From Motilibacter peucedani (GTDB lineage: Bacteria > Actinomycetota > Actinomycetes > Motilibacterales > Motilibacteraceae), in assembly GCF_003634695.1 (NCBI RefSeq), contig NZ_RBWV01000013.1, positions 124,001 through 188,000 on the forward strand: a DNA stretch of 64,000 nucleotides, read 5' to 3'. The position numbers and the translations under genes were made by a program. A model generated the notes under the pieces. That model was not told the DNA's origin and ran no database searches. It worked only from the letters and a program-made list of their open reading frames with translations. Positions within the stretch are counted from its first letter, which is position 1. Every line of letters begins with the position of its first letter. Below are positions 3,200-30,862 of this stretch, piece after piece.

Positions 3200-4150
3200 A
3201 TGGCCGCCACGAAGACGCCGGTCGAGGTCGACGGACGCCGGTTGATGCTCTCGAACCTCGACAAGGTGATGTACCCGGCGACGGGCTTCACCAAGGGCGA
3301 GGTCATCGACTACTACGCGCGGGTCGCGCCCGTGCTGCTCCCGCACCTGACCGGACGGCCCGCGACGCGCAAGCGCTACCCCGACGGCGTCGAAGGCGGC
3401 GACTTCTTCGAGAAGAACGCGCCGAAGCACACGCCCGACTGGGTGCGCACTGTCACGCTCGACTCGCCGGGCAGCACGAAGGGCCGCGAGACCATCGACT
3501 ACGTCGTGGTCGAGGGGCTGGCCACGCTGGTCTGGCTGGCGAACCTCGCCGCCCTGGAGCTGCACGTGCCGCAGTGGACCGTGGGCCCGCGCGGCGGCGT
3601 GCGCGGTGCCGACCTCGTGGTGCTCGACCTCGACCCGGGCCCGCCGGCGACGGTCGTCGAGTGCAGCGAGGTGGCCCAGCTCATCCGCACCACGCTGGTC
3701 CGGCCCGAGTGGGGCGGTCTCGAGGTGTGGGCCAAGACCAGCGGCTCCAAGGGCATGCAGCTGTGCGTGCCGGTCGCGACGACGCCGTGGGAGCGCACGC
3801 ACGCCTTCGCCCGCGCGCTGGCCGAGCACCTGGAGCGCGAGCGCCCCGACCTGGTCGTCTCGCGCATGACGAAGGCGCTGCGTCCGGGCAAGGTGCTCAT
3901 CGACTGGAGCCAGAACAACGGCTCGAAGACCACGGTTGCGCCCTACTCGCTGCGCGCCCGGGAGGCGCCGACCGTCTCGACGCCGGTGACGTGGGACGAG
4001 GTGGCCGCGTGCCGCGCCCCGGAGGACCTGCGATTCACCGCGCCGGACGTGCTCGCGCGGGTCGACGAGCTCGGGGACCTGCTCGCCCCTCTGCTCGAGC
4101 GCCGCCAGCGGCTACTGGACCCACCGGCACCCGCACAGGGGGTGCGCTGA
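3200..4150 (+). CDS. LigD-type primase-polymerase (stand-alone polymerase domain)
   Basis: This archaeo-eukaryotic primase family polymerase fills gaps and adds nucleotides during end joining. Catalytic features are visible in the 316-residue product: the DLDPG motif with metal-binding D143 and D145, LHVPQW (H122), SGSKG (181-185), and the third acidic residue in LIDW (D235). There is no ligase or phosphoesterase domain, so it is a polymerase-only paralogue rather than full-length LigD. ATG 3200 follows GGGGAG; ATG 3167 would add 11 residues. It is divergent from ku, and its 3' end overlaps the convergent gene by 39 bp. Confidence 0.92.
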   Translation: MAATKTPVEVDGRRLMLSNLDKVMYPATGFTKGEVIDYYARVAPVLLPHLTGRPATRKRYPDGVEGGDFFEKNAPKHTPDWVRTVTLDSPGSTKGRETIDYVVVEGLATLVWLANLAALELHVPQWTVGPRGGVRGADLVVLDLDPGPPATVVECSEVAQLIRTTLVRPEWGGLEVWAKTSGSKGMQLCVPVATTPWERTHAFARALAEHLERERPDLVVSRMTKALRPGKVLIDWSQNNGSKTTVAPYSLRAREAPTVSTPVTWDEVAACRAPEDLRFTAPDVLARVDELGDLLAPLLERRQRLLDPPAPAQGVR

Positions 4151-5173
4151 CCAGCTGCGCCGGCGCAGCAGGCCGTGGGGCAAGGAGTACTCCAGCGCCC
4201 CGTCGCGCGCGGGCCCGTCCCTCGCGCCGTCGAGGTTGGCCAGGACCTGGGCGGCGGCAGCGGCGCTCCCGAGCGCGGCCAGCGCCGTGTCGCAGGGCTC
4301 GACGTCGGGTCCGCCGGCCATAAGCTGGGCCACCAGCACCGGCCAGCCGGGGTCGCGGTCGCGCCGGTGCAGGTCGAGGCAGCGCAGGCAGCTCGTGACG
4401 CCCGGCACCACCAGCGGCCCCACGACCGCCACGGTCTCCCGCACGCCGGCCAGCAGGTGGGGCACCCCGGCGCGCACCAGCGCGTCGACGGTGCGCTGGT
4501 CGGGCCGTCCGGCGCCGGCCAGCACCGCCAGGTCGGGGGAGGCCCGGGCGGCGGGACGCTCCGCTAGCGGGGTGTCCGCCGCCGCCGCGATCTCCGCCGC
4601 GCGCCCGCGCGGCATGCCCACGGCCGCTGCAGGCAGGCCCAGCGGCGAGACGTCGGCGGCGCCGGCACGGGCGGGGTCCTCGACGGTCACCCGGCCCACT
4701 CCGGACGCCGCGAGCAGCCGGGCCACGCCCGCACCGACCCGCCCGGCGCCGTGGACCTCGACCCAGCGGCGGCTGCGCGCCTCGAGCAGCGCGGTCGCGC
4801 CGTCCGTGCGGGCGGGGTGGAGCAGCGAGAGGCTGGCGAGGTCGGGGGCCAGCCGGGCGCGTACGTCGCCCCGCCACCCGGCCAGCGGGGCAGCGCGCGC
4901 ACCGAGGTCGTCGAGCGCCCCGGCCCGCAGCAGCAGCGCCAGCAGCGCCCGGGCGCGCTCGGGCACCAGCCCGGCCCGTGCGGCCGAGCGCTCGAGGTCG
5001 ACGGTGTCGAGCGAGCCGTCGAGACCGCTCAGCAGCGCGCGCTCGGCGGGCTCCAGGCCCTGCACGACGACGGCCCGCTCGGGGTCGACGCCGAGCTGCA
5101 CGCTGCCCGGGTCGCGCCAGAGCAGGTGCAGGGCGGTCTTGAGGACGGGGTGCACCCGGTCAGCGTGGACCAC
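4112..5173 (-). CDS. ThiF/E1-like adenylyltransferase-fold protein of unknown substrate
   Basis: The 353-residue product has an N-terminal region (1-100) resembling the winged-helix front end seen in peptide-modifying ThiF proteins, then a Rossmann-like nucleotide segment (GAGRVG at 142-147), and a zinc-type cysteine set C262, C265 with C347, C349 near the end. E1-like enzymes adenylate a protein or peptide C-terminus. No leader peptide, YcaO or dehydrogenase partner is present nearby, so a RiPP pathway cannot be claimed; homologues occur alone near uvrD2 in actinobacteria. GTG at 5173 was taken as start; later GTG codons are possible. The 3' end overlaps the polymerase gene. Confidence 0.72.
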   Translation of the reverse strand: MVHADRVHPVLKTALHLLWRDPGSVQLGVDPERAVVVQGLEPAERALLSGLDGSLDTVDLERSAARAGLVPERARALLALLLRAGALDDLGARAAPLAGWRGDVRARLAPDLASLSLLHPARTDGATALLEARSRRWVEVHGAGRVGAGVARLLAASGVGRVTVEDPARAGAADVSPLGLPAAAVGMPRGRAAEIAAAADTPLAERPAARASPDLAVLAGAGRPDQRTVDALVRAGVPHLLAGVRETVAVVGPLVVPGVTSCLRCLDLHRRDRDPGWPVLVAQLMAGGPDVEPCDTALAALGSAAAAAQVLANLDGARDGPARDGALEYSLPHGLLRRRSWSAHPLCGCRWVQ

Positions 5174-5428: not shown

Positions 5429-5642
5429 GGGGGTCTCCTTCTTCGTCGACGGGAGCTGGCGGTTCCACCACGGGGCGCTCCGAGGCGTCACCCTACGACA
5501 CGCGCGGCCGGGCCTGCCTGCGCCGCGCCGCTCCGGCGGCTCCGGCGGCCGTCCCCACCCTGTGGACAGAGCTGGGGAGAACCTGGGGACGCGACGGTGG
5601 AGAACCCCGCGCGCAGGGGGTGCGGCGCGGTAGCGTCCGGTC

Positions 5643-6209
5643 ATGAGCGCGGAGGCCTCACCCACCGGACTGAGCGTCGAGGTGCGGCGCAGCGCCCGCC
5701 GCAGACGCACCGTCTCGGCCTACCGCGAGGGCGACACGGTCGTCGTCCTGGTGCCCGCCGGCCTCCCGAGCGCGCAGGAGCAGCGCTGGGTGCGGACCAT
5801 GCTCGAGCGCCTCGACCTGCAGGAGCAGCGGCGCAGCCCCTCCGACGACGCCCTGCACGAGCGCGCCGCCGACCTCTCCCGCCGCTTCCTCGGCGGGCTC
5901 GCCCGCCCGCAGTCGGTGCGCTGGGTCGAGAACCAGGGCAGCCGCTGGGGCTCGTGCACGCCCACCGACGGCTCGATCCGGCTGTCCGCGCGGCTGCGCG
6001 GGGTGCCGACCTGGGTCATCGACTACGTGCTGCTGCACGAGCTGGCCCACCTGCTCGAGCCGGGCCACGGCCCAGCCTTCTGGACGCTGCTCGAGGGGTA
6101 CCCCCGCACGCAGCGCGCGAGGGGCTTCCTGGAGGGCATCGACTTCGTCACGCAGGCCGGCCAGCCCGGGACGGCCGACCTCGACCCGCCCGGGCCCTCG
6201 CTGAGCTGA
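5643..6209 (+). CDS. M48/YgjP-like zinc metallopeptidase (DUF45 family)
   Basis: The 188-residue protein carries the zinc site HELAH (H132, E133, H136) with a third ligand in EPGHGPAFW (H142) and the family motif NQGSRWGSC (97-105). YgjP-like proteins are small cytosolic putative metalloproteases. No signal peptide or membrane span is seen. It is divergently transcribed from the DUF5679 gene. Substrate unknown. Confidence 0.9.
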   Translation: MSAEASPTGLSVEVRRSARRRRTVSAYREGDTVVVLVPAGLPSAQEQRWVRTMLERLDLQEQRRSPSDDALHERAADLSRRFLGGLARPQSVRWVENQGSRWGSCTPTDGSIRLSARLRGVPTWVIDYVLLHELAHLLEPGHGPAFWTLLEGYPRTQRARGFLEGIDFVTQAGQPGTADLDPPGPSLS

Positions 6210-6317
6210 CGGCGCGGCGCAGATCGGCCGCCGTTCGCCCGCCGTCCACGTGGTCGGGGTTGACCCCGCTGCGGCGCACCGTGAGACTCCCCGGACACCG
6301 ACTCCCCGGGGGATCCC

Positions 6318-8648
6318 ATGCGGCAGACGCTCGCTGCCTTCTGCACTGCGGTCGCGCTGACGTGCGCCGGCCTCTCGGTCACGCCAGCCACCGCCTCGGC
6401 TGCGCCGGCCGCCGACCCCGGTCCGGCGGCACCGCCGGTCCAGGTCCGGACCTACCAGTTCCCGGGTCTCGGCGGCGGCCTCAGCCACTACGTGGACTAC
6501 AACTCGGTGCGCGACTTCGTCGGGTGGTCCGAGCTCCCCAACGGGCTGCGCCACGCGACGCTGTGGCGGGACTCGCGCGTCGTCGACCTCGCGCCCCGGT
6601 CCATCGAGTCCTACGCGACTGCCATCGCCGAGAACGGCGACATCAGCCTCTGGGCCGACTTCGGGCAGGGTCTGCGCCACTACCGGTGGCGCAGCGGCGG
6701 GCTCACCCGCACGACCCCGCCGAAGACGCCGGCCCCACCCGTCCCGCCTGTGCGGCCGCCAGGCACCGTCGCGACCAACGAGCACGGGGACGCCGTCGTC
6801 CGTGACGCCGCGTCCCAGCGGCTCTACCTCGTGCGCGCCGGCAGCAGCGCGCGCACCGAGGTCGTGGTCCCGGGCGTGGCACCCGCGACCATCAAGGGCG
6901 TCCTGCTGGCCGAGGACCGGGCCGTCGCCGTGAGCGTGCCCGGCGGGACCGTGGACTGCGAGCACGACGTCGCTCCGCCGTCGCGGTTCTTCGTCTGGCG
7001 GGCAGGCAAGGTCTCAGCGGTGCCCGTGAGTGACGGCCTCGCGCGCTCCACGACGGTGGTGCTGCGTGCATGGACGCCGGCCGGCGACCTGCTCCTGCAG
7101 AGCGACTACCCGTGCTTCGACGGACAGGCCGACTCCGTCGCGCTGGCGGTCTGGGACGGGACCTCGACGCACGACCTCGGCAGTGCCGGGGTCCGGGAGA
7201 TCTTCGTCAACGCGCAGGGTGTCGTCGCCGTCCACGACGAGGCGGACCAGGCGCCTGCCCGCGACCGGGTCGAGGTCTGGTCCCACGGCTCGCTGACGCA
7301 GGTCGCCGGCCCCTTCAGCGACGGCCGCGGCTTCCGCCTGGTGGCCCTGGGCGCCCACGGCGAGCTGGTGGTCCAGGGCTCGTTGCTCGAGGTCTACCGC
7401 CAGGGCGCCTGGATCCCACTCTCCGCGCCGGAGGGCTCTGCCTCCGAGTTCCCCGACTTCGCCTCTCTCGACGGCCACCTGGTCACCGCGGGTGCCCAGT
7501 GGCGTTCTCCGGACGGCATCCTGTCCAGCACCGACATCGCCTGGGAGCTCCTGTCGGTCGTGGTGAGCCGGACGCTGCCCTCGCTGGGCGCCTCGTGGAC
7601 GACCACGCCGACGCTCATCAGCCCGTCAGGGCGTGTCGTGGCGGGCACCGCCACCAAGCCCTACCCGGACGACCGCGTGCACGCCGTCGTCTGGATCGAC
7701 GGCCGGATCACCGACGTGACCGTCTCCGCCCCCGTGGCCGACGTGGACGAGGTCACCGACGCCGGCGACGTGCTGGGACGGGTGGGGACCCACACGGGCA
7801 CGGTGCCCTCGCGACCGTTCCGCTGGCACCGGGGCACCCTGACCTACCTCGACGGCCCGGGCGTGCTGGCCTACAACTCGCTCGGCGGGACCGTCCGGTC
7901 CACCTCCAGCGGAGTCGCCTTCGTCGACCCGGGCGGTGCGAGCCACCCCATCACCGTGCCCGGGCACGTCGTCCGCCCCACGGCGCACTTCGAGGTGAAC
8001 GACGCGGGCACCGTCGCCTTCGACGTGCCCGGAGCGACGGTCGACTGCGGCGAGCGGAAGGCCGTCGCCACCGAGGTGTGGACCTGGCACGGAGGCAGGG
8101 CGGTACGCGCCTCGACCAACCACCGGCTGGGCGCGCAGCAGCGGGTCCTCTCCCTGAACCGGCGTGACGACCTGCTGCTCGCCGGGACCGACCCGTGCGC
8201 ACCGGTGACCGACGCGCCGGTACTGCGCATCGGGCTCTCGGACGACACGGGGGTGCACCTGCTCGGCAGCGAGTACGCGGTCGACGCCGGCCGCGACGAC
8301 CTCGACGACGAGGGCGACGCCCTGGTGGTGTCCAGCTCTCTGTTCGCGAACAGCCCGCTCGTCTGGGCAGGTGGCCGTGAGACGCGGCTCGGCCTGCGCA
8401 GTCCCTTCCGCGGCCCGCGGCTGGGTGCGGGTGGTCAGGTGGTCGCCGAGGTCTTCGAGGTCCCCAGCCCTCCCGTGTGGACGGCCGGCACCTACGTCGC
8501 GATGCCCTCCAGCGGCGGCGTCGACTCGGTCGCCACCGCGGTGAGCCGGAGCGGCGTCATCGCGGGGTGGCGCTACACCCGAGTGCAGTTGCCCAACGGC
8601 TCCTTCGAGATCACCCAGGTCACGCCCACGCTCTTCACGCTCAGGTAG
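6318..8648 (+). CDS. Large secreted HAF-repeat-like beta-propeller protein
   Basis: A 776-residue exported protein. The N-terminus is a classical signal peptide (MRQTLAAFC..., hydrophobic core, cleavage likely near TASA-AP, about residue 32). The rest contains repeated blocks pairing an AI-x-ENGD-like turn with HATLW/RPFRW/HAVVW-RDG strands, the pattern of extracellular HAF repeats, which fold as a propeller. Two cysteine pairs (VDCEHD and VDCGERK contexts) could form disulfides. It is monocistronic with no neighbour that hints at a ligand; possible surface or secreted binding protein. Confidence 0.75.
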   Translation: MRQTLAAFCTAVALTCAGLSVTPATASAAPAADPGPAAPPVQVRTYQFPGLGGGLSHYVDYNSVRDFVGWSELPNGLRHATLWRDSRVVDLAPRSIESYATAIAENGDISLWADFGQGLRHYRWRSGGLTRTTPPKTPAPPVPPVRPPGTVATNEHGDAVVRDAASQRLYLVRAGSSARTEVVVPGVAPATIKGVLLAEDRAVAVSVPGGTVDCEHDVAPPSRFFVWRAGKVSAVPVSDGLARSTTVVLRAWTPAGDLLLQSDYPCFDGQADSVALAVWDGTSTHDLGSAGVREIFVNAQGVVAVHDEADQAPARDRVEVWSHGSLTQVAGPFSDGRGFRLVALGAHGELVVQGSLLEVYRQGAWIPLSAPEGSASEFPDFASLDGHLVTAGAQWRSPDGILSSTDIAWELLSVVVSRTLPSLGASWTTTPTLISPSGRVVAGTATKPYPDDRVHAVVWIDGRITDVTVSAPVADVDEVTDAGDVLGRVGTHTGTVPSRPFRWHRGTLTYLDGPGVLAYNSLGGTVRSTSSGVAFVDPGGASHPITVPGHVVRPTAHFEVNDAGTVAFDVPGATVDCGERKAVATEVWTWHGGRAVRASTNHRLGAQQRVLSLNRRDDLLLAGTDPCAPVTDAPVLRIGLSDDTGVHLLGSEYAVDAGRDDLDDEGDALVVSSSLFANSPLVWAGGRETRLGLRSPFRGPRLGAGGQVVAEVFEVPSPPVWTAGTYVAMPSSGGVDSVATAVSRSGVIAGWRYTRVQLPNGSFEITQVTPTLFTLR

Positions 8649-24627: not shown

Positions 24628-25566
24628 ATGAGACTTCGCGCCATCGCCCCCGCCCTCGCCGTCGCGGCCCTCGCCGCCGCGGTCCCTGCCACCGCCGACG
24701 CAGCCGTCTCCACGCAGGCGCGCATCGAGCTGCCCGCGGGCTTCCTGCCCGAGGGCATCACCACCGTCACCGGCGGCTCCGCCTTCTTCGCCGGGTCCAT
24801 GGTCGACGGGCGGATCGTCACCGGTGACGTACGCACCGGTGCCCTGCGCACGCTCACCCCCGGCACGACCGGGCGGGCGCTGCGCGGCATGGCCTACGAC
24901 CCGCGCACGCGGCTGCTGTGGGCGGTCGGGACGCAGGGCTCGCAGGGCATCGTGCTGGCCGTCGACTCGCGCTCCGGCGCCGTGCGCTGGTCGCACCTGA
25001 TCGCCGGCGCCGCCTTCGTCAACGACCTCACGATCACCCCGGGCGCCGTCTGGGTCACCGACTCGGGGGTCGACCGGCTCACGCGGGTCGCCCTCCAGGG
25101 CGGCCTGCCGGTGGGCGAGCCGACCTTCCTGCCGCTGACCGGCGCCTGGCCCACGGCCGGCGACCTGCGCGCCAACGGCATCCGCTCTCTGGTCGACGGC
25201 TCGCTGCTGCTCGACCACTCGAGCGCGGGCGGGCTCTGGCGCGTCGACCCGGCGACCGGCGTGACGACGGCGGTACCGATCAAGGGCGGCTCGCTGACCG
25301 GCGGCGACGGGCTCGAGCTCGCCGGCAACACGGCCTTCGTCGTGCGCGGCAACGACAACTACAGCGTCAGCGTGCTGACCCTGGGCTACGGCGCCGGGCG
25401 CTCGGTCACGGCGACCTGGCGGCGCACCGTCACCGACCCCGGGCTCGACGTGCCGTCGACGACCTCGCGGGCCGGCAAGTACCTCTTCACCATCAACGCG
25501 CGGTTCGGCGTGGCCGACCCGACGTCGGCGTCCTACTGGATCACGCGCCTGCCCGCGACGACGTAG
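24628..25566 (+). CDS. Secreted SMP-30-like beta-propeller protein
   Basis: A 312-residue exported protein: signal peptide MRLRAIAPALAVAALAAAV with cleavage near ADA-AV (about residue 26), then repeated propeller strands (LRGMAYDPRTRLLWAVG, VNDLTITPGAVWVTDS, ANGIRSLVDGSLLLDHS, GDGLELAGNTAFVVRG), the layout of SMP-30/gluconolactonase-like proteins. Metal-binding residues could not be assigned firmly. AGAGAG precedes the ATG. Its 3' end overlaps the convergent DksA-type gene by 26 bp. Confidence 0.82.
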   Translation: MRLRAIAPALAVAALAAAVPATADAAVSTQARIELPAGFLPEGITTVTGGSAFFAGSMVDGRIVTGDVRTGALRTLTPGTTGRALRGMAYDPRTRLLWAVGTQGSQGIVLAVDSRSGAVRWSHLIAGAAFVNDLTITPGAVWVTDSGVDRLTRVALQGGLPVGEPTFLPLTGAWPTAGDLRANGIRSLVDGSLLLDHSSAGGLWRVDPATGVTTAVPIKGGSLTGGDGLELAGNTAFVVRGNDNYSVSVLTLGYGAGRSVTATWRRTVTDPGLDVPSTTSRAGKYLFTINARFGVADPTSASYWITRLPATT

Positions 25567-25891
25567 CGCAGGAGACGCACGTCCGCGCGGTCGGCCGGGC
25601 CTCGAGCCGGCCGGCCGCGACGGGCTGCCCGCAGACCTCGCACGTGCCGTAGGTGCCCGCCTCGACCCGCGCGAGCGCCGCGTCCAGCTCGAGCAGGCGG
25701 GCGCGCGACTGCTCGAGCAGCGCGCTGAGCTGGGCGCGCTCGAAGCCGATCGTCGCGCCCTCGGGGTCGTGCTCGTCGTCGGCGTTGCTGTCGGCCGAGG
25801 CGGCCACGATGCCGGTGAACTCGCGCTCGAGCGCGCCGATGCGGGCCAGCGTCCCGGCCCGCTCGGCGTCGAGGAGCTCCTCGGGGCTCAG
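25541..25891 (-). CDS. TraR/DksA C4 zinc-finger family protein with no ATG/GTG/TTG start
   Basis: DksA/TraR-like proteins enter the RNA polymerase secondary channel or act as general regulators. The product has the family layout: an N-terminal helix ([17 protein letters not shown]), [21 protein letters not shown], a long helix ending [15 protein letters not shown], and a four-cysteine finger (CEVC...CVSC). The conserved N-terminal helix is coded right up to the cold-shock stop, yet this frame has no ATG, GTG or TTG there. CTG at 25889-25891 overlaps the cold-shock TGA (CTGA) and would give 116 residues. A GTG about 30 codons in would lose the helix. No Shine-Dalgarno is seen; translational coupling is likely. 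Confidence 0.82.
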
Positions 25892-26928
25892 AGCGGTGTG
25901 ACGTCGACCGCGTGGGGCCCGCGGTCGGTCGGGGTCGTGCCGAACGCGACGCGCTGGCCCTCCTCGAGCGTGCGGAAGCCGCCCTTCTCCGCGATGGCGG
26001 AGAAGTGCACGAACACGTCGGCGCTGCCGTCGTCGGGCGTGATGAACCCGAAGCCCTTGTCGGCGCTGAACCACTGCACCGTGCCGTTGCCGCCCGAGCC
26101 GCCGCCGGCGGGCCGGCGCGCGGGCGCGTCGCGCCGCTCGTAGGAGTCGCGGCGCGGTGCGGCGTCGCGCCGCTCGTAGGAGTCGCGGCGGGGAGCGGCA
26201 TCGCGCCGCGGCGGGGCGTCGCGCTTGGGCCCGCGGGCAGGAGCGGCGACCGCGCCGACCACGCGTACCTTCTCGGCCTGCAGGCCGCGCTGGCCGGCGC
26301 CGACCGCGAACTCGACCTTCTGGCCCTCGTCGAGGGTGCGGAAGCCGGTGCCGCCGCTGATGGCGGAGAAGTGGACGAAGACGTCGTCGGGCGTGATGAA
26401 CCCGAAGCCCTTCTCCTGGTCGAACCAGTGCACGGTGCCGGTGAACGTGAGCACGTCGCCCGCGGCGGGGTCGGCGACCGGGCGGACCTTCTCGGCCTGC
26501 GGGCCGCGCGGGCCCTCGGCCACCTCGAACTCGACCTTCTGGCCCTCGTCGAGGAAGTGCACGCCGACCAGCGAGGACAGGTGGACGAAGACGTCCTCGC
26601 CGCCGTCGTCGGGCGAGAGGAAGCCGAAGCCCTTGTCGGGGTCGAACCACAGCACCGTGCCGAGCGAGAGCCCGCTCGCCGGCTCGTGGACGGCCGGCGG
26701 CGCGTCCTGCGGCTCGCGCTCGGCCGCGACCAGGCGCACGTCCTCGGCCTGGGGGCCGCGCTCGCCGTCGACGCGCTCGAACTCGACGCGCTGGCCCTCC
26801 TCGAGGGTGCGGAAGCCGCCGTCGGCCACGATCGCGCGGAAGTGCACGAACACGTCCGCCTCGCCGTCGTCGGGCTCGAGGAACCCGAACCCCTTGTCTG
26901 CGTTGAACCAGCGCACTGTGCCCTGCAT
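25888..26928 (-). CDS. Four-domain cold-shock protein (4 x CSD)
   Basis: A 346-residue protein built from four cold-shock domains: about 1-67, 89-151, 163-224 and 281-345. Each has RNP1 (KGFGFL or KGFGFI at 12, 99, 173, 291) and RNP2 (VFVHF/VFVHL at 26, 113, 183, 305), plus a GTVxWF start and EGQ-VEF strand. Domain 3 lacks about four residues between its DD and VFVHF. Domains 3 and 4 are joined by a basic linker with two 12-residue [12 protein letters not shown] units. Bacterial Csp proteins normally have one domain of about 67 residues and bind single-stranded RNA/DNA. ATG 26928 (MQGTV) follows GGGAG at 9 nt; TTG 26934 is an alternative. Confidence 0.92.
26126..26190 (-). repeat. 36-bp tandem repeat coding the RDSYER linker
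   Basis: Two nearly identical 29-nt blocks (26126-26154 and 26162-26190) recur with a 36-bp period inside the four-CSD gene and encode the repeated basic linker between cold-shock domains 3 and 4. Confidence 0.85.
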
Positions 26929-27027: not shown

Positions 27028-27270
27028 TCAGGCCGGGATGAGCCCGGTGTCGTCACGCACCTCGGCGCCGAGGGAGATCAGACGGGGGGTCGCCTCGCGG
27101 CCGTGGTGCCCGCAGAAGACGAGCTCGCCGCCCTCGCTCATCCGCGCCCGCACGAAGGCCTGGGCCCCGCAGCGGTCGCACCGGTCGGCGACGGCGAGGG
27201 GCGCGAGGACGGAGTCCGAGGTGTGGGAAGGCGTGATGTCGGGCCGGGTGTCGGAGATCGCGTTCGACAT
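27028..27270 (-). CDS. DUF7455 zinc-ribbon-like small protein (copy 1)
   Basis: An 80-residue protein with the family core LAPLAVADRCDRCGAQAF, a GELVFCGHH motif and a RDDTGLI end; the CxxC plus CGHH residues are likely metal ligands. DUF7455 is an actinobacterial family of unknown function. GGGAAAG precedes the ATG. A close paralogue lies on the opposite strand at 30605. Confidence 0.92.
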   Translation of the reverse strand: MSNAISDTRPDITPSHTSDSVLAPLAVADRCDRCGAQAFVRARMSEGGELVFCGHHGREATPRLISLGAEVRDDTGLIPA

Positions 27271-28787: not shown

Positions 28788-30512
28788 GTGAGCGACGACG
28801 GATTCGGCGAGCTGGGCCTGCGGCCCGAGCTGCTGGCGGCACTGGTGACCCTGGGATACGAGGAGCCGACGCCGATCCAGCGGGAGTCGATCCCGCCGCT
28901 GCTCGAGGGCCACGACCTGCTCGGCCAGGCGGCCACCGGCACCGGCAAGACGGCGGCGTTCGCGCTGCCGCTGCTGAGCCGGATCCTCGACCGGCCCGAC
29001 CGCCGCACGCCCGGCGCCCTGATCCTGGTGCCGACCCGCGAGCTCGCGGTGCAGGTGTCGGAGGCCACGCACAAGTACGGCAAGGACCTCGGCGCCCGGG
29101 TGCTGCCGGTCTACGGCGGTGCGCCCATCGGCCACCAGCTGCGCGCGCTCGAGCGCGGTGTCGACGTCGTCGTGGCCACCCCGGGGCGCGCGCTCGACCA
29201 CATCAGCCGCGGCACGCTCGACCTGTCGGCGCTGCAGATGGTCGTGCTCGACGAGGCCGACGAGATGCTCGACATGGGCTTCGCCGAGGACATCGAGTCG
29301 ATCCTCGAGAGCACGCCCGAGGGCCGGCAGACGGTGCTCTTCTCGGCGACCATGCCCGGGCGCGTCGACGCGATCGCGCGCCGGCACCTGCGCGACCCGA
29401 TCCGCATCCAGATCGAGCGCGAGCGGGCCGCCGCGGGCGAGGCGCCGCTGGTGCGGCAGAGCGCCTACGTCGTGTCGCGCGCCTACAAGTCGGCAGCGCT
29501 GGGCCGCGTGCTCGACGTCGAGGCGCCGACCGCCGCCATCGTCTTCTGCCGCACCCGGGACGAGGTCGACACGCTCACCGAGTCGCTCAACGGCCGCGGC
29601 TACCGCGCCGAGGCGCTGCACGGCGGCATGAGCCAGGAGCAGCGCGACCGGGTGATGAACCGCCTGCGCTCGGGCACCGCCGAGCTGCTCATCGCCACCG
29701 ACGTCGCCGCCCGCGGGCTCGACCTCGACCAGCTCACCCACGTCTTCAACTACGACGTGCCCTCGGCTCCCGAGGCCTACGTCCACCGCATCGGCCGCGT
29801 CGGCCGCGCCGGCCGGGCCGGCGTGGCCATCACGCTCGCCGAGCCGCGCGAGCACCGCATGCTCAAGGTCATCGAGCGCGTCACCGGCCAGAAGATCGCC
29901 GTGGCCAAGGTGCCGACCGTGTCCGACCTGCGGGCCCGCCGGCTCGAGATGACCCGCTCCGCGCTCGAGGAGAGCCTGGTCACCGACGAGCTCGACGAGT
30001 TCCGCGTGGTGGTCGAGGCGCTCGCCGGGGAGTTCGACCTCATGGAGATCGCGCTCGCCGCGGTCAAGCTGGCCCACGAGGCGGGCGGCCCGACCACCGA
30101 CGAGGAGGAGATCCCCGAGGTGGCGCCGCGCCCCGAGCGCGAGCAGCGCGCCGGTGGCTCCCACGCCGGCGGCCCGGGCGGCTCCCACTCCGGCGCCGGC
30201 CGCGGGGGCTCGGGCGGCTCCGGTGGCCCGAGCGGGCGGCCGCAGCGCTCGCTGGGCGCCGACTCGACCAAGCTGTGGATCAGCCTCGGGCGCAGCGCGG
30301 GCATCCGCCCGCAGGACCTCGTCGGCGCGATCGCCGGCGAGGCGGGGCTGCCCGGGCGCCAGATCGGCGCCATCGAGATCGCCGACCGGTTCTCGCTGGT
30401 CGAGGTGCCGGAGTCGGCGGCCGAGACGGTCATGCAGGCGCTGCGCGCCACGAAGATCAAGGGCCGCACCGCCGCCGTGCGCCGCGACCGGGGCCACCGC
30501 GAGCGCGGCTGA
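28788..30512 (+). CDS. DEAD-box RNA helicase with DbpA-type RNA-binding tail
   Basis: A 574-residue ATP-dependent RNA helicase: Q motif (GYEEPTPIQ), ATGTGKT (motif I), DEAD (LDEADEMLDMGF), SAT, and HRIGRVGRAGR (motif VI). A Gly/Ser-rich linker (about 450-485) leads to a C-terminal RRM-like DbpA domain (TKLWISLGRSAGIRPQDLVG to IKGRTAAV). CsdA/DeaD proteins of this build act in ribosome assembly and cold adaptation. GTG 28788 has GAGGAG upstream. It is near the four-CSD gene and between the two DUF7455 paralogues. Confidence 0.95.
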   Translation: MSDDGFGELGLRPELLAALVTLGYEEPTPIQRESIPPLLEGHDLLGQAATGTGKTAAFALPLLSRILDRPDRRTPGALILVPTRELAVQVSEATHKYGKDLGARVLPVYGGAPIGHQLRALERGVDVVVATPGRALDHISRGTLDLSALQMVVLDEADEMLDMGFAEDIESILESTPEGRQTVLFSATMPGRVDAIARRHLRDPIRIQIERERAAAGEAPLVRQSAYVVSRAYKSAALGRVLDVEAPTAAIVFCRTRDEVDTLTESLNGRGYRAEALHGGMSQEQRDRVMNRLRSGTAELLIATDVAARGLDLDQLTHVFNYDVPSAPEAYVHRIGRVGRAGRAGVAITLAEPREHRMLKVIERVTGQKIAVAKVPTVSDLRARRLEMTRSALEESLVTDELDEFRVVVEALAGEFDLMEIALAAVKLAHEAGGPTTDEEEIPEVAPRPEREQRAGGSHAGGPGGSHSGAGRGGSGGSGGPSGRPQRSLGADSTKLWISLGRSAGIRPQDLVGAIAGEAGLPGRQIGAIEIADRFSLVEVPESAAETVMQALRATKIKGRTAAVRRDRGHRERG

Positions 30513-30604: not shown

Positions 30605-30862
30605 ATGAACACCACGGCAACGGACAGCACGGCTGACCCGGTCGCCCAGGCCCCGCTGGCGCCGCTCGTCGTCGCCGACCGCTGCGACAGCTGCGGCGCG
30701 CAGGCGTTCATGCGCGTGCGGCTGCGCTCCGGCGGCGAGCTGCTCTTCTGCGGCCACCACGGCCGCGAGAACGCCCCCGCCCTCGTGGCTGCCGGCGCCT
30801 CGGTGCGCGACGACACCGCGCTCATCAACGTCAAGCCCTCGACCTCGGCCAACGCCCTCTGA
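30605..30862 (+). CDS. DUF7455 zinc-ribbon-like small protein (copy 2)
   Basis: An 85-residue paralogue of the gene at 27028: LAPLVVADRCDSCGAQAF, GELLFCGHH, RDDTALI, differing mainly at both ends. The CxxC and CGHH putative metal ligands are kept. Only 9 bp separate it from the convergent LysE gene. Function unknown; the duplication suggests two differently regulated copies. Confidence 0.92.
   Translation: MNTTATDSTADPVAQAPLAPLVVADRCDSCGAQAFMRVRLRSGGELLFCGHHGRENAPALVAAGASVRDDTALINVKPSTSANAL

Follow-up and report, generated by a model that had tools for sequence, protein, structure and literature searches.

A single gene of the actinomycete Motilibacter peucedani encodes a protein with four complete cold-shock domains (CSDs), which fits a group of tandem-CSD proteins that have three or four CSDs and a penultimate domain with a loop of only four residues between its RNP1 and RNP2 motifs. 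The gene lies in the 64,000-nucleotide stretch of DNA analysed here (contig NZ_RBWV01000013.1, positions 124,001 to 188,000), which we refer to as the window. The parts of this protein are ordinary and their arrangement is unusual and conserved. Judging from sequence comparison and a predicted structure, it is probably a multivalent chaperone that binds single-stranded nucleic acids, a bacterial tandem-CSD protein.

The preliminary description of the window had proposed four CSDs in one 346-residue chain, and profile searching with the Pfam model PF00313 (cut-off 27 bits) bears this out with exact coordinates, placing the gene on the minus strand (Table 1). Four separate stretches of the single chain match the model (whole-protein E 1.1e-99), and all four score above its cut-off (77.8–97.9 bits). 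RNP1 reads KGFGF and RNP2 reads VFVH in every one of the four domains. GC content at codon positions 1, 2 and 3 of the frame (0.77, 0.49 and 0.97) is a clear coding signal, and the DNA of the four domains is 74–83% mutually alike, so that they are not collapsed fresh copies. Three more CSD matches occur in the genome, each the sole CSD of its frame. Residues 161–191, at the start of domain 3, also match PF22707, the S1/CSD-like domain 2 of TOTE conflict systems (the chain scores 34.7 bits, cut-off 27), probably through nothing more than the common CSD core.

Table 1 Position of the four-CSD gene and its parts within the window (G001 is the second genome of the genus)
Feature	Position	Strand	Basis
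Gene for 346-aa protein with four cold-shock domains, ATG at 26928 to TGA at 25888	25888..26928	-	ORF, Pfam, coding composition, same-layout homologue in G001
Cold-shock domain 1, residues 1–68	26725..26928	-	PF00313, 97.9 bits
Cold-shock domain 2, residues 87–152	26473..26670	-	PF00313, 77.8 bits
Cold-shock domain 3, short-loop subtype, residues 161–226	26251..26448	-	PF00313, 81.4 bits
TPDD, RNP1–RNP2 loop of domain 3 (four residues)	26383..26394	-	Other CSDs read: 7–8 residues
Linker from domain 3 to domain 4, rich in Arg, Asp, Pro and Ala, residues 227–278	26095..26250	-	Sequence; predicted disordered (pLDDT)
Cold-shock domain 4, residues 279–346	25891..26094	-	PF00313, 91.3 bits

In an AlphaFold2 model computed from the window chain and three relatives (4 sequences), four OB barrels are predicted, with no further barrels between them. 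Mean pLDDT is 70.9 and pTM 0.28, and the relative placement of the barrels is therefore not predicted. Averaged over 10-residue blocks, pLDDT is ~89–92 across most of domains 1 and 4, 68–86 in domain 2 and 56–81 in domain 3, the least certain barrel, in which the strands on either side of the short turn are nevertheless preserved. The long linker of ~50 residues has values of 31–49, with residues 226–276 all below 50; the other two linkers have just 18 and 8 residues. A search of the PDB by fold returned tandem CSDs of Drosophila Unr as the best three matches (7zhh, 7zhr and 6y6e, E 3.4e-12 to 1.1e-10), followed by single bacterial Csps (0.7–2.2 Å), consistent with the likeness to UNR that had been suggested from the sequence.

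Comparison with known systems sets the protein apart from each of them. Like CspA-type Csps (CspA, CspB, CspE), every domain of the window protein is a full CSD with RNP1 and RNP2 that scores over the Pfam cut-off; however, those proteins consist of one domain of ~70 residues, whereas here four domains stand in 346 residues, with the lysine of the GTVKW strand replaced in all of them (by R, L, H and Q), one four-residue loop and a long linker rich in arginine and aspartate. With UNR/CSDE1 of animals it shares the presence of several CSDs in one chain, but CSDE1 is described, in the available part of a 2021 review, as having five canonical CSDs with extra CSDs interspersed (PMC7825780), an architecture that differs from four domains joined by flexible charged linkers. 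We found no evidence that the window protein descends from UNR/CSDE1. Among bacteria, chains with more than a single CSD are also known from Alphaproteobacteria (Caulobacter CspD, described as a two-CSD protein in the accessible text of PMC4830024, Azospirillum and others); these proteins have two CSDs against three to five in the proteins considered here, the window protein with its four lies outside that type, and a short-loop domain was found in none of six two-CSD loci (L046–L050 and L055).

The same review, in the part available, states that bacterial Csps have one CSD "as a rule" (PMC7825780), and the initial claim that the architecture is unusual for bacteria holds in this sense; it is not singular, because proteins with three to five CSDs occur in other Actinomycetes. 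Among the titles and abstract starts of the matches listed in the open-licence literature, none dealt with a bacterial protein that has three or more CSDs. Proteins with three or four CSDs are present in all five genomes examined from Motilibacter's order, the window's own included. G001 encodes a four-CSD protein with 63% identity to that of the window, and domains 1, 3 and 4 each find their best match in their own counterpart there (68, 77 and 72%), while domain 2 is 58% identical to its counterpart and 62% to domain 1. In the alignment, the domain 2 position is also occupied in G001 and G026, and is absent from the three-domain relatives.

Altogether, 37 distinct proteins with three to five CSDs were read: six from the order, two of them in Motilibacter deserti (G004, the coding sequence of locus L041 being identical letter for letter in that genome), 29 from the Geodermatophilus family, and one each from G025 and G026. 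Within the Geodermatophilus family, 13 of these proteins have three CSDs, 11 have four and five have five, where the protein of L163 reaches the edge of its stretch 22 bases past its fourth CSD and may have further ones. The five-CSD proteins (L139, L146, L155, L158 and L162) equal animal CSDE1 in the number of its canonical CSDs. The occurrence of multi-CSD proteins in the sampled genomes is patchy, and most relatives are without one: matches were obtained in at least 7 of 89 genomes of an even sample of the class at 1e-32 (five of the seven from the window's order), at least 1 of 110 genomes across the phylum at 1e-30 (the window's own) and at least 29 of 76 genomes sampled from the family to which Geodermatophilus amargosae belongs at 1e-30 (yielding the 29 proteins), all of these being lower bounds set by the required E values of ≤1e-30 or 1e-32, with candidate-rich genomes scored in part (at most 23, 19 and 27 candidates per genome for class, phylum and family, respectively).

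A second tandem type was detected at L124 (M. deserti, 5594–6601) and L125 (G025, 3357–4385). Like the window protein, its members come from Actinomycetes and have four CSDs, but their linkers measure 8–29 residues and the short-loop domain is absent; M. deserti carries both types. The domains of L124 and L125, which belong to two families, pair one-to-one with each other and not with those of the window, except that domain 1 of this type pairs with window domain 2 in the tree, with poor support (97/40). Modestobacter lapidis likewise has a three-CSD protein that lacks a short-loop domain. When four multi-CSD proteins were run against NCBIfam, the only models above cut-off were those of single Csps, among them CspA, CspD and CspE, apart from a model for a retron effector; the single-Csp models matched each protein three to five times, CspE first, and a model for the multi-CSD architecture was not found. 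Present names would therefore hide such proteins.

The most distinctive element of the window protein is its third domain, in which four residues before RNP2 are missing compared with the neighbouring domains (ITPDDVFVH). A four-residue loop between RNP1 and RNP2 is seen in 16 of the 127 domains of proteins with three or more CSDs, the other 111 having eight residues. None of the 86 single-domain CSDs that could be scored has it (n = 87; eight residues in 77, seven in nine, one unread by the pattern). The 16 short-loop domains come from 16 of the 37 multi-CSD proteins, in three families, and invariably occupy the penultimate position, as domain 2 of three in 13 cases and domain 3 of four in the remaining three. 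The alignment shows the same columns gapped in the penultimate domain of G001, G002, G003, G004, G026 and Geodermatophilus. A single origin of the short-loop domains is not rejected by the AU test (p 0.497), although the CSD tree of 69 columns does not show it: the best tree needs three changes for short-loop domains, six for first domains and four for last domains, and by domain position, 25 of its 50 inner branches are open on these 69 columns. At the level of sequence, the short-loop penultimate CSD is a conserved, position-bound subtype, in agreement with the early remark that domain 3 is shortened before RNP2 and specialised.

A further difference concerns the first strand (GTVKW). All 87 single-domain CSDs have its Lys-Trp pair, against 21 of the 111 long-loop domains of multi-CSD proteins (6 unread) and none of the 16 short-loop domains. 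For the single domains, only the lysine contrast in this comparison is meaningful, since they were gathered by similarity to the window protein, in many cases with peptide patterns that specify the tryptophan but not the lysine. A second, differing pattern detected the lysine in 15 of 127 multi-CSD domains (12 unread), and both counts are far under 87 of 87. Arginine stands in place of the tryptophan in 12 of the 16 short-loop domains, as it also does in 6 of the 111 long-loop domains, while in the window protein, and in three genomes of its order, the short-loop domain reads His-Trp. In B. subtilis CspB, the tryptophan of the first strand participates in RNA binding, as reported in the available portion of PMC11648934. 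Retention of the pair in single-domain proteins and its loss from most multi-CSD domains speak for a divergence in role.

Linkers of the 37 proteins share a characteristic composition (R 25.5%, G 24.8%, D 12.6%, P 10.1%, A 9.8%, K 0.1%). The basic RDSYER repeat noted earlier between domains 3 and 4 does correspond to a stretch rich in arginine and aspartate, but the comparison does not support a role for the repeat as such, as the letters SYER are found in none of the other 36 multi-CSD proteins; it is the Arg/Gly/Asp-rich linkers that recur, with RDDR/RGG-type repeats in several relatives of the window protein.

From these features, we infer a mode of binding, a ligand, a partner and a condition of use. 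Csps bind single-stranded DNA and RNA through stacking and with low sequence specificity, according to the available part of PMC7825780. In the window protein, CSD barrels with intact RNP1/RNP2 faces would bind short segments of single strand on the same molecule of RNA (or single-stranded DNA), the whole chain would bind more tightly and cover a longer footprint than a Csp of 70 residues, and the flexible Arg/Gly/Asp-rich linkers would supply reach and weak, charge-based contacts. With its trimmed loop and mostly replaced Lys-Trp pair, the short-loop penultimate CSD would likely engage a different ligand or a protein partner. A loop near the RNP face sets the target preference of E. coli CspD, in the accessible text of PMC11648934, albeit a different loop, located after strand 3. 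Under stress, such a protein would likely work with helicases to keep structured RNA or unwound strands from closing. The specialised RNA binding proposed at the outset is retained as regards a specialised domain 3, while the ligand may be RNA or single-stranded DNA. Against the multivalent reading, a CSD number that ranges from three to five fits loose selection equally well, and the occurrence is so patchy that most relatives do without such a protein.

Gene order in the Geodermatophilaceae raises a more specific possibility. All ten short-loop genes of this family are the next gene after the helicase gene lhr, 62–94 nt downstream on the same strand, whereas lhr was found upstream of none of the family's 19 other multi-CSD genes, in stretches reaching 0.8 to 5.4 kb upstream. 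Pfam identified the L178 helicase as Lhr, with matches to DEAD, DEAD_assoc and four models of the Lhr winged helix; the other nine were recognised by 85–98% identity to it. Farther downstream, on the same strand, nine of the ten loci have a glycosylase-like gene (aligned over 243–316 of 331 residues); at the tenth, L172, the contig stops 337 bases past the CSDs. The protein might accordingly serve in DNA repair: as a partner of Lhr, an SF2 helicase, and of other helicases, it would bind single strands and coat the one opened by Lhr, a role that we regard as possible, if rather unlikely. It would accord with the lhr-nei2 pair of mycobacteria, described in the available part of PMC11323726 as a DNA-damage-induced operon for crosslink repair, and with the roughly tenfold preference of BsCspB for DNA over RNA (available part of PMC7825780).

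Several observations weigh against this repair role. The ten loci come from one family, and their lhr genes are 85–100% alike, so that the linkage probably goes back to a single event in the past. All five genomes examined from the window's order have lhr, and a search for it adjoining a CSD gene there found none: in G001 it is ~246 kb from the CSD gene, and in G000, G002, G003 and G004 it lies on a contig other than that of the CSD gene. Nine of the ten loci (L130, L140, L142, L144, L147, L148, L150, L154 and L156) share a conserved, promoter-like box, CGCGTACCGT, downstream of lhr and upstream of the CSD start; it may be a promoter, which makes co-transcription uncertain. Lastly, the glycosylase label comes from the L178 gene only, which matches the Fapy N-terminal model (34.5 bits, cut-off 25.5) and falls just under the cut-off for H2TH (32.7 bits against 34.7), and its identity as Nei2 is putative.

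A neighbourhood common to all multi-CSD genes was sought by clustering ORFs (clusters of at least four loci, over 21 loci) and rejected. One single-linkage cluster covers all 21 loci, with its listed rows antisense to the CSD genes; as read, these are shadow frames, which may conceal a true neighbour. The remaining clusters belong to the Geodermatophilus lhr region, one of them including a single ORF of another locus. Some other multi-CSD genes have neighbours that are conserved inside their particular group: an aminotransferase gene lies near two four-CSD genes (L169 and L174), and a Haem_oxygenas_2 gene near the multi-CSD genes of G002 and M. deserti (L121 and L123).

Around the window gene itself, the neighbours carry little weight. 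The DEAD-box helicase mentioned in the preliminary description (28788–30512, plus strand) combines a DeaD dimerisation domain with a DbpA RNA-binding domain. The sister species has retained it, at 78% identity, and there the DUF7455, glycosidase and DEAD-box genes stand upstream of the four-CSD gene in the same order as in the window. Two DUF7455 (PF24254) genes (27028–27270, minus strand; 30605–30862, plus strand) flank the glycosidase and DEAD-box genes in the window. At eight further loci of relatives (L040, L042 and L121–L126), none of these three kinds of gene was found; the sole exception is a weak match to the DEAD-box query in L040 (29%, E 7e-7), which coincides with the lhr of that locus. 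The supposed DksA-like neighbour fared worse. This zinc-finger ORF (25541–25891, minus strand), which overlaps the stop of the four-CSD gene, matches PF01258 (TraR/DksA-type; 49.5 bits, cut-off 24.9) but scores under the DksA cut-offs (NCBIfam DksA-like, 57 bits against 105; TIGR02420, 51 against 115.5), and no counterpart of it was found in the stretch around the G001 gene or at L040, L042 and L121–L126. A conserved operon with either the DEAD-box helicase or the DksA-like gene was thus rejected, the search for kept neighbours outside G001 being negative. No ATG, GTG or TTG start was seen at the junction between the zinc-finger ORF and the four-CSD gene. A CTG overlapping the four-CSD stop (CTGA) would give an ORF of 116 residues, which suggests, from sequence, a rare CTG start with translational coupling.

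Another reading takes the linkers as its starting point: tandem CSDs joined by mixed-charge Arg/Gly/Asp linkers could make a phase-separating mRNP protein that scaffolds RNA condensates. Over the 37 proteins, arginine, glycine and aspartate together make up 63% of the linkers, the long linker is disordered in the model, and the RDDR/RGG-type repeats of several relatives are in keeping with such a function. As the argument draws on composition alone, and two of the window protein's three linkers are short, we consider condensate scaffolding unlikely; it and multivalent chaperoning are not mutually exclusive.

Plain tandem duplication, which would leave four independent Csp-like units with a dosage effect and no new function, appears more doubtful still. 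Consistent with it are the variation in domain number from three to five, the three Modestobacter lapidis domains, which group together in the tree as copies made inside one gene would, and window domain 2, which is not best matched by its G001 counterpart. On the other hand, domains 1, 3 and 4 remain recognisable as the same domains in both Motilibacter species, the short-loop domain is locked in position in proteins of three families, and the Lys-Trp pair, universal in the single-domain CSDs, is scarce in the long-loop and missing from the short-loop domains of multi-CSD proteins, all of which argue against mere multiplication of Csp units. An assembly or annotation artefact that fused separate csp genes is refuted by the homologues, since the G001 protein, 63% identical, has the same layout and its gene shares the upstream neighbours of the window gene, each of the five genomes examined from the order has a protein of three or four domains, and the window gene is a single open frame with a strong coding signal.

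Bacterial Csps have been treated as one-domain RNA chaperones and multi-CSD proteins as mRNA regulators of animals. Proteins with three to five CSDs in the window species and a few other actinobacteria indicate that some bacteria have a form of their own of a design familiar chiefly from RNA-binding proteins of animals, and the bacterial line with three to five CSDs is a simple system for probing multivalency, loop length and linkers. The linkage to lhr is a concrete pointer towards DNA repair, in a family, that of Geodermatophilus, noted for its hardiness towards desiccation and radiation. As a speculation that we hold to be improbable, Actinomycetes may have evolved UNR-like proteins of their own, with CSDs in tandem on mixed-charge linkers and a distinct penultimate subtype, and helicases may have gained a standing partner in this line, in Geodermatophilus the crosslink-repair helicase Lhr. 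If true, this would add a cold-shock-domain component to a bacterial DNA-repair pathway.
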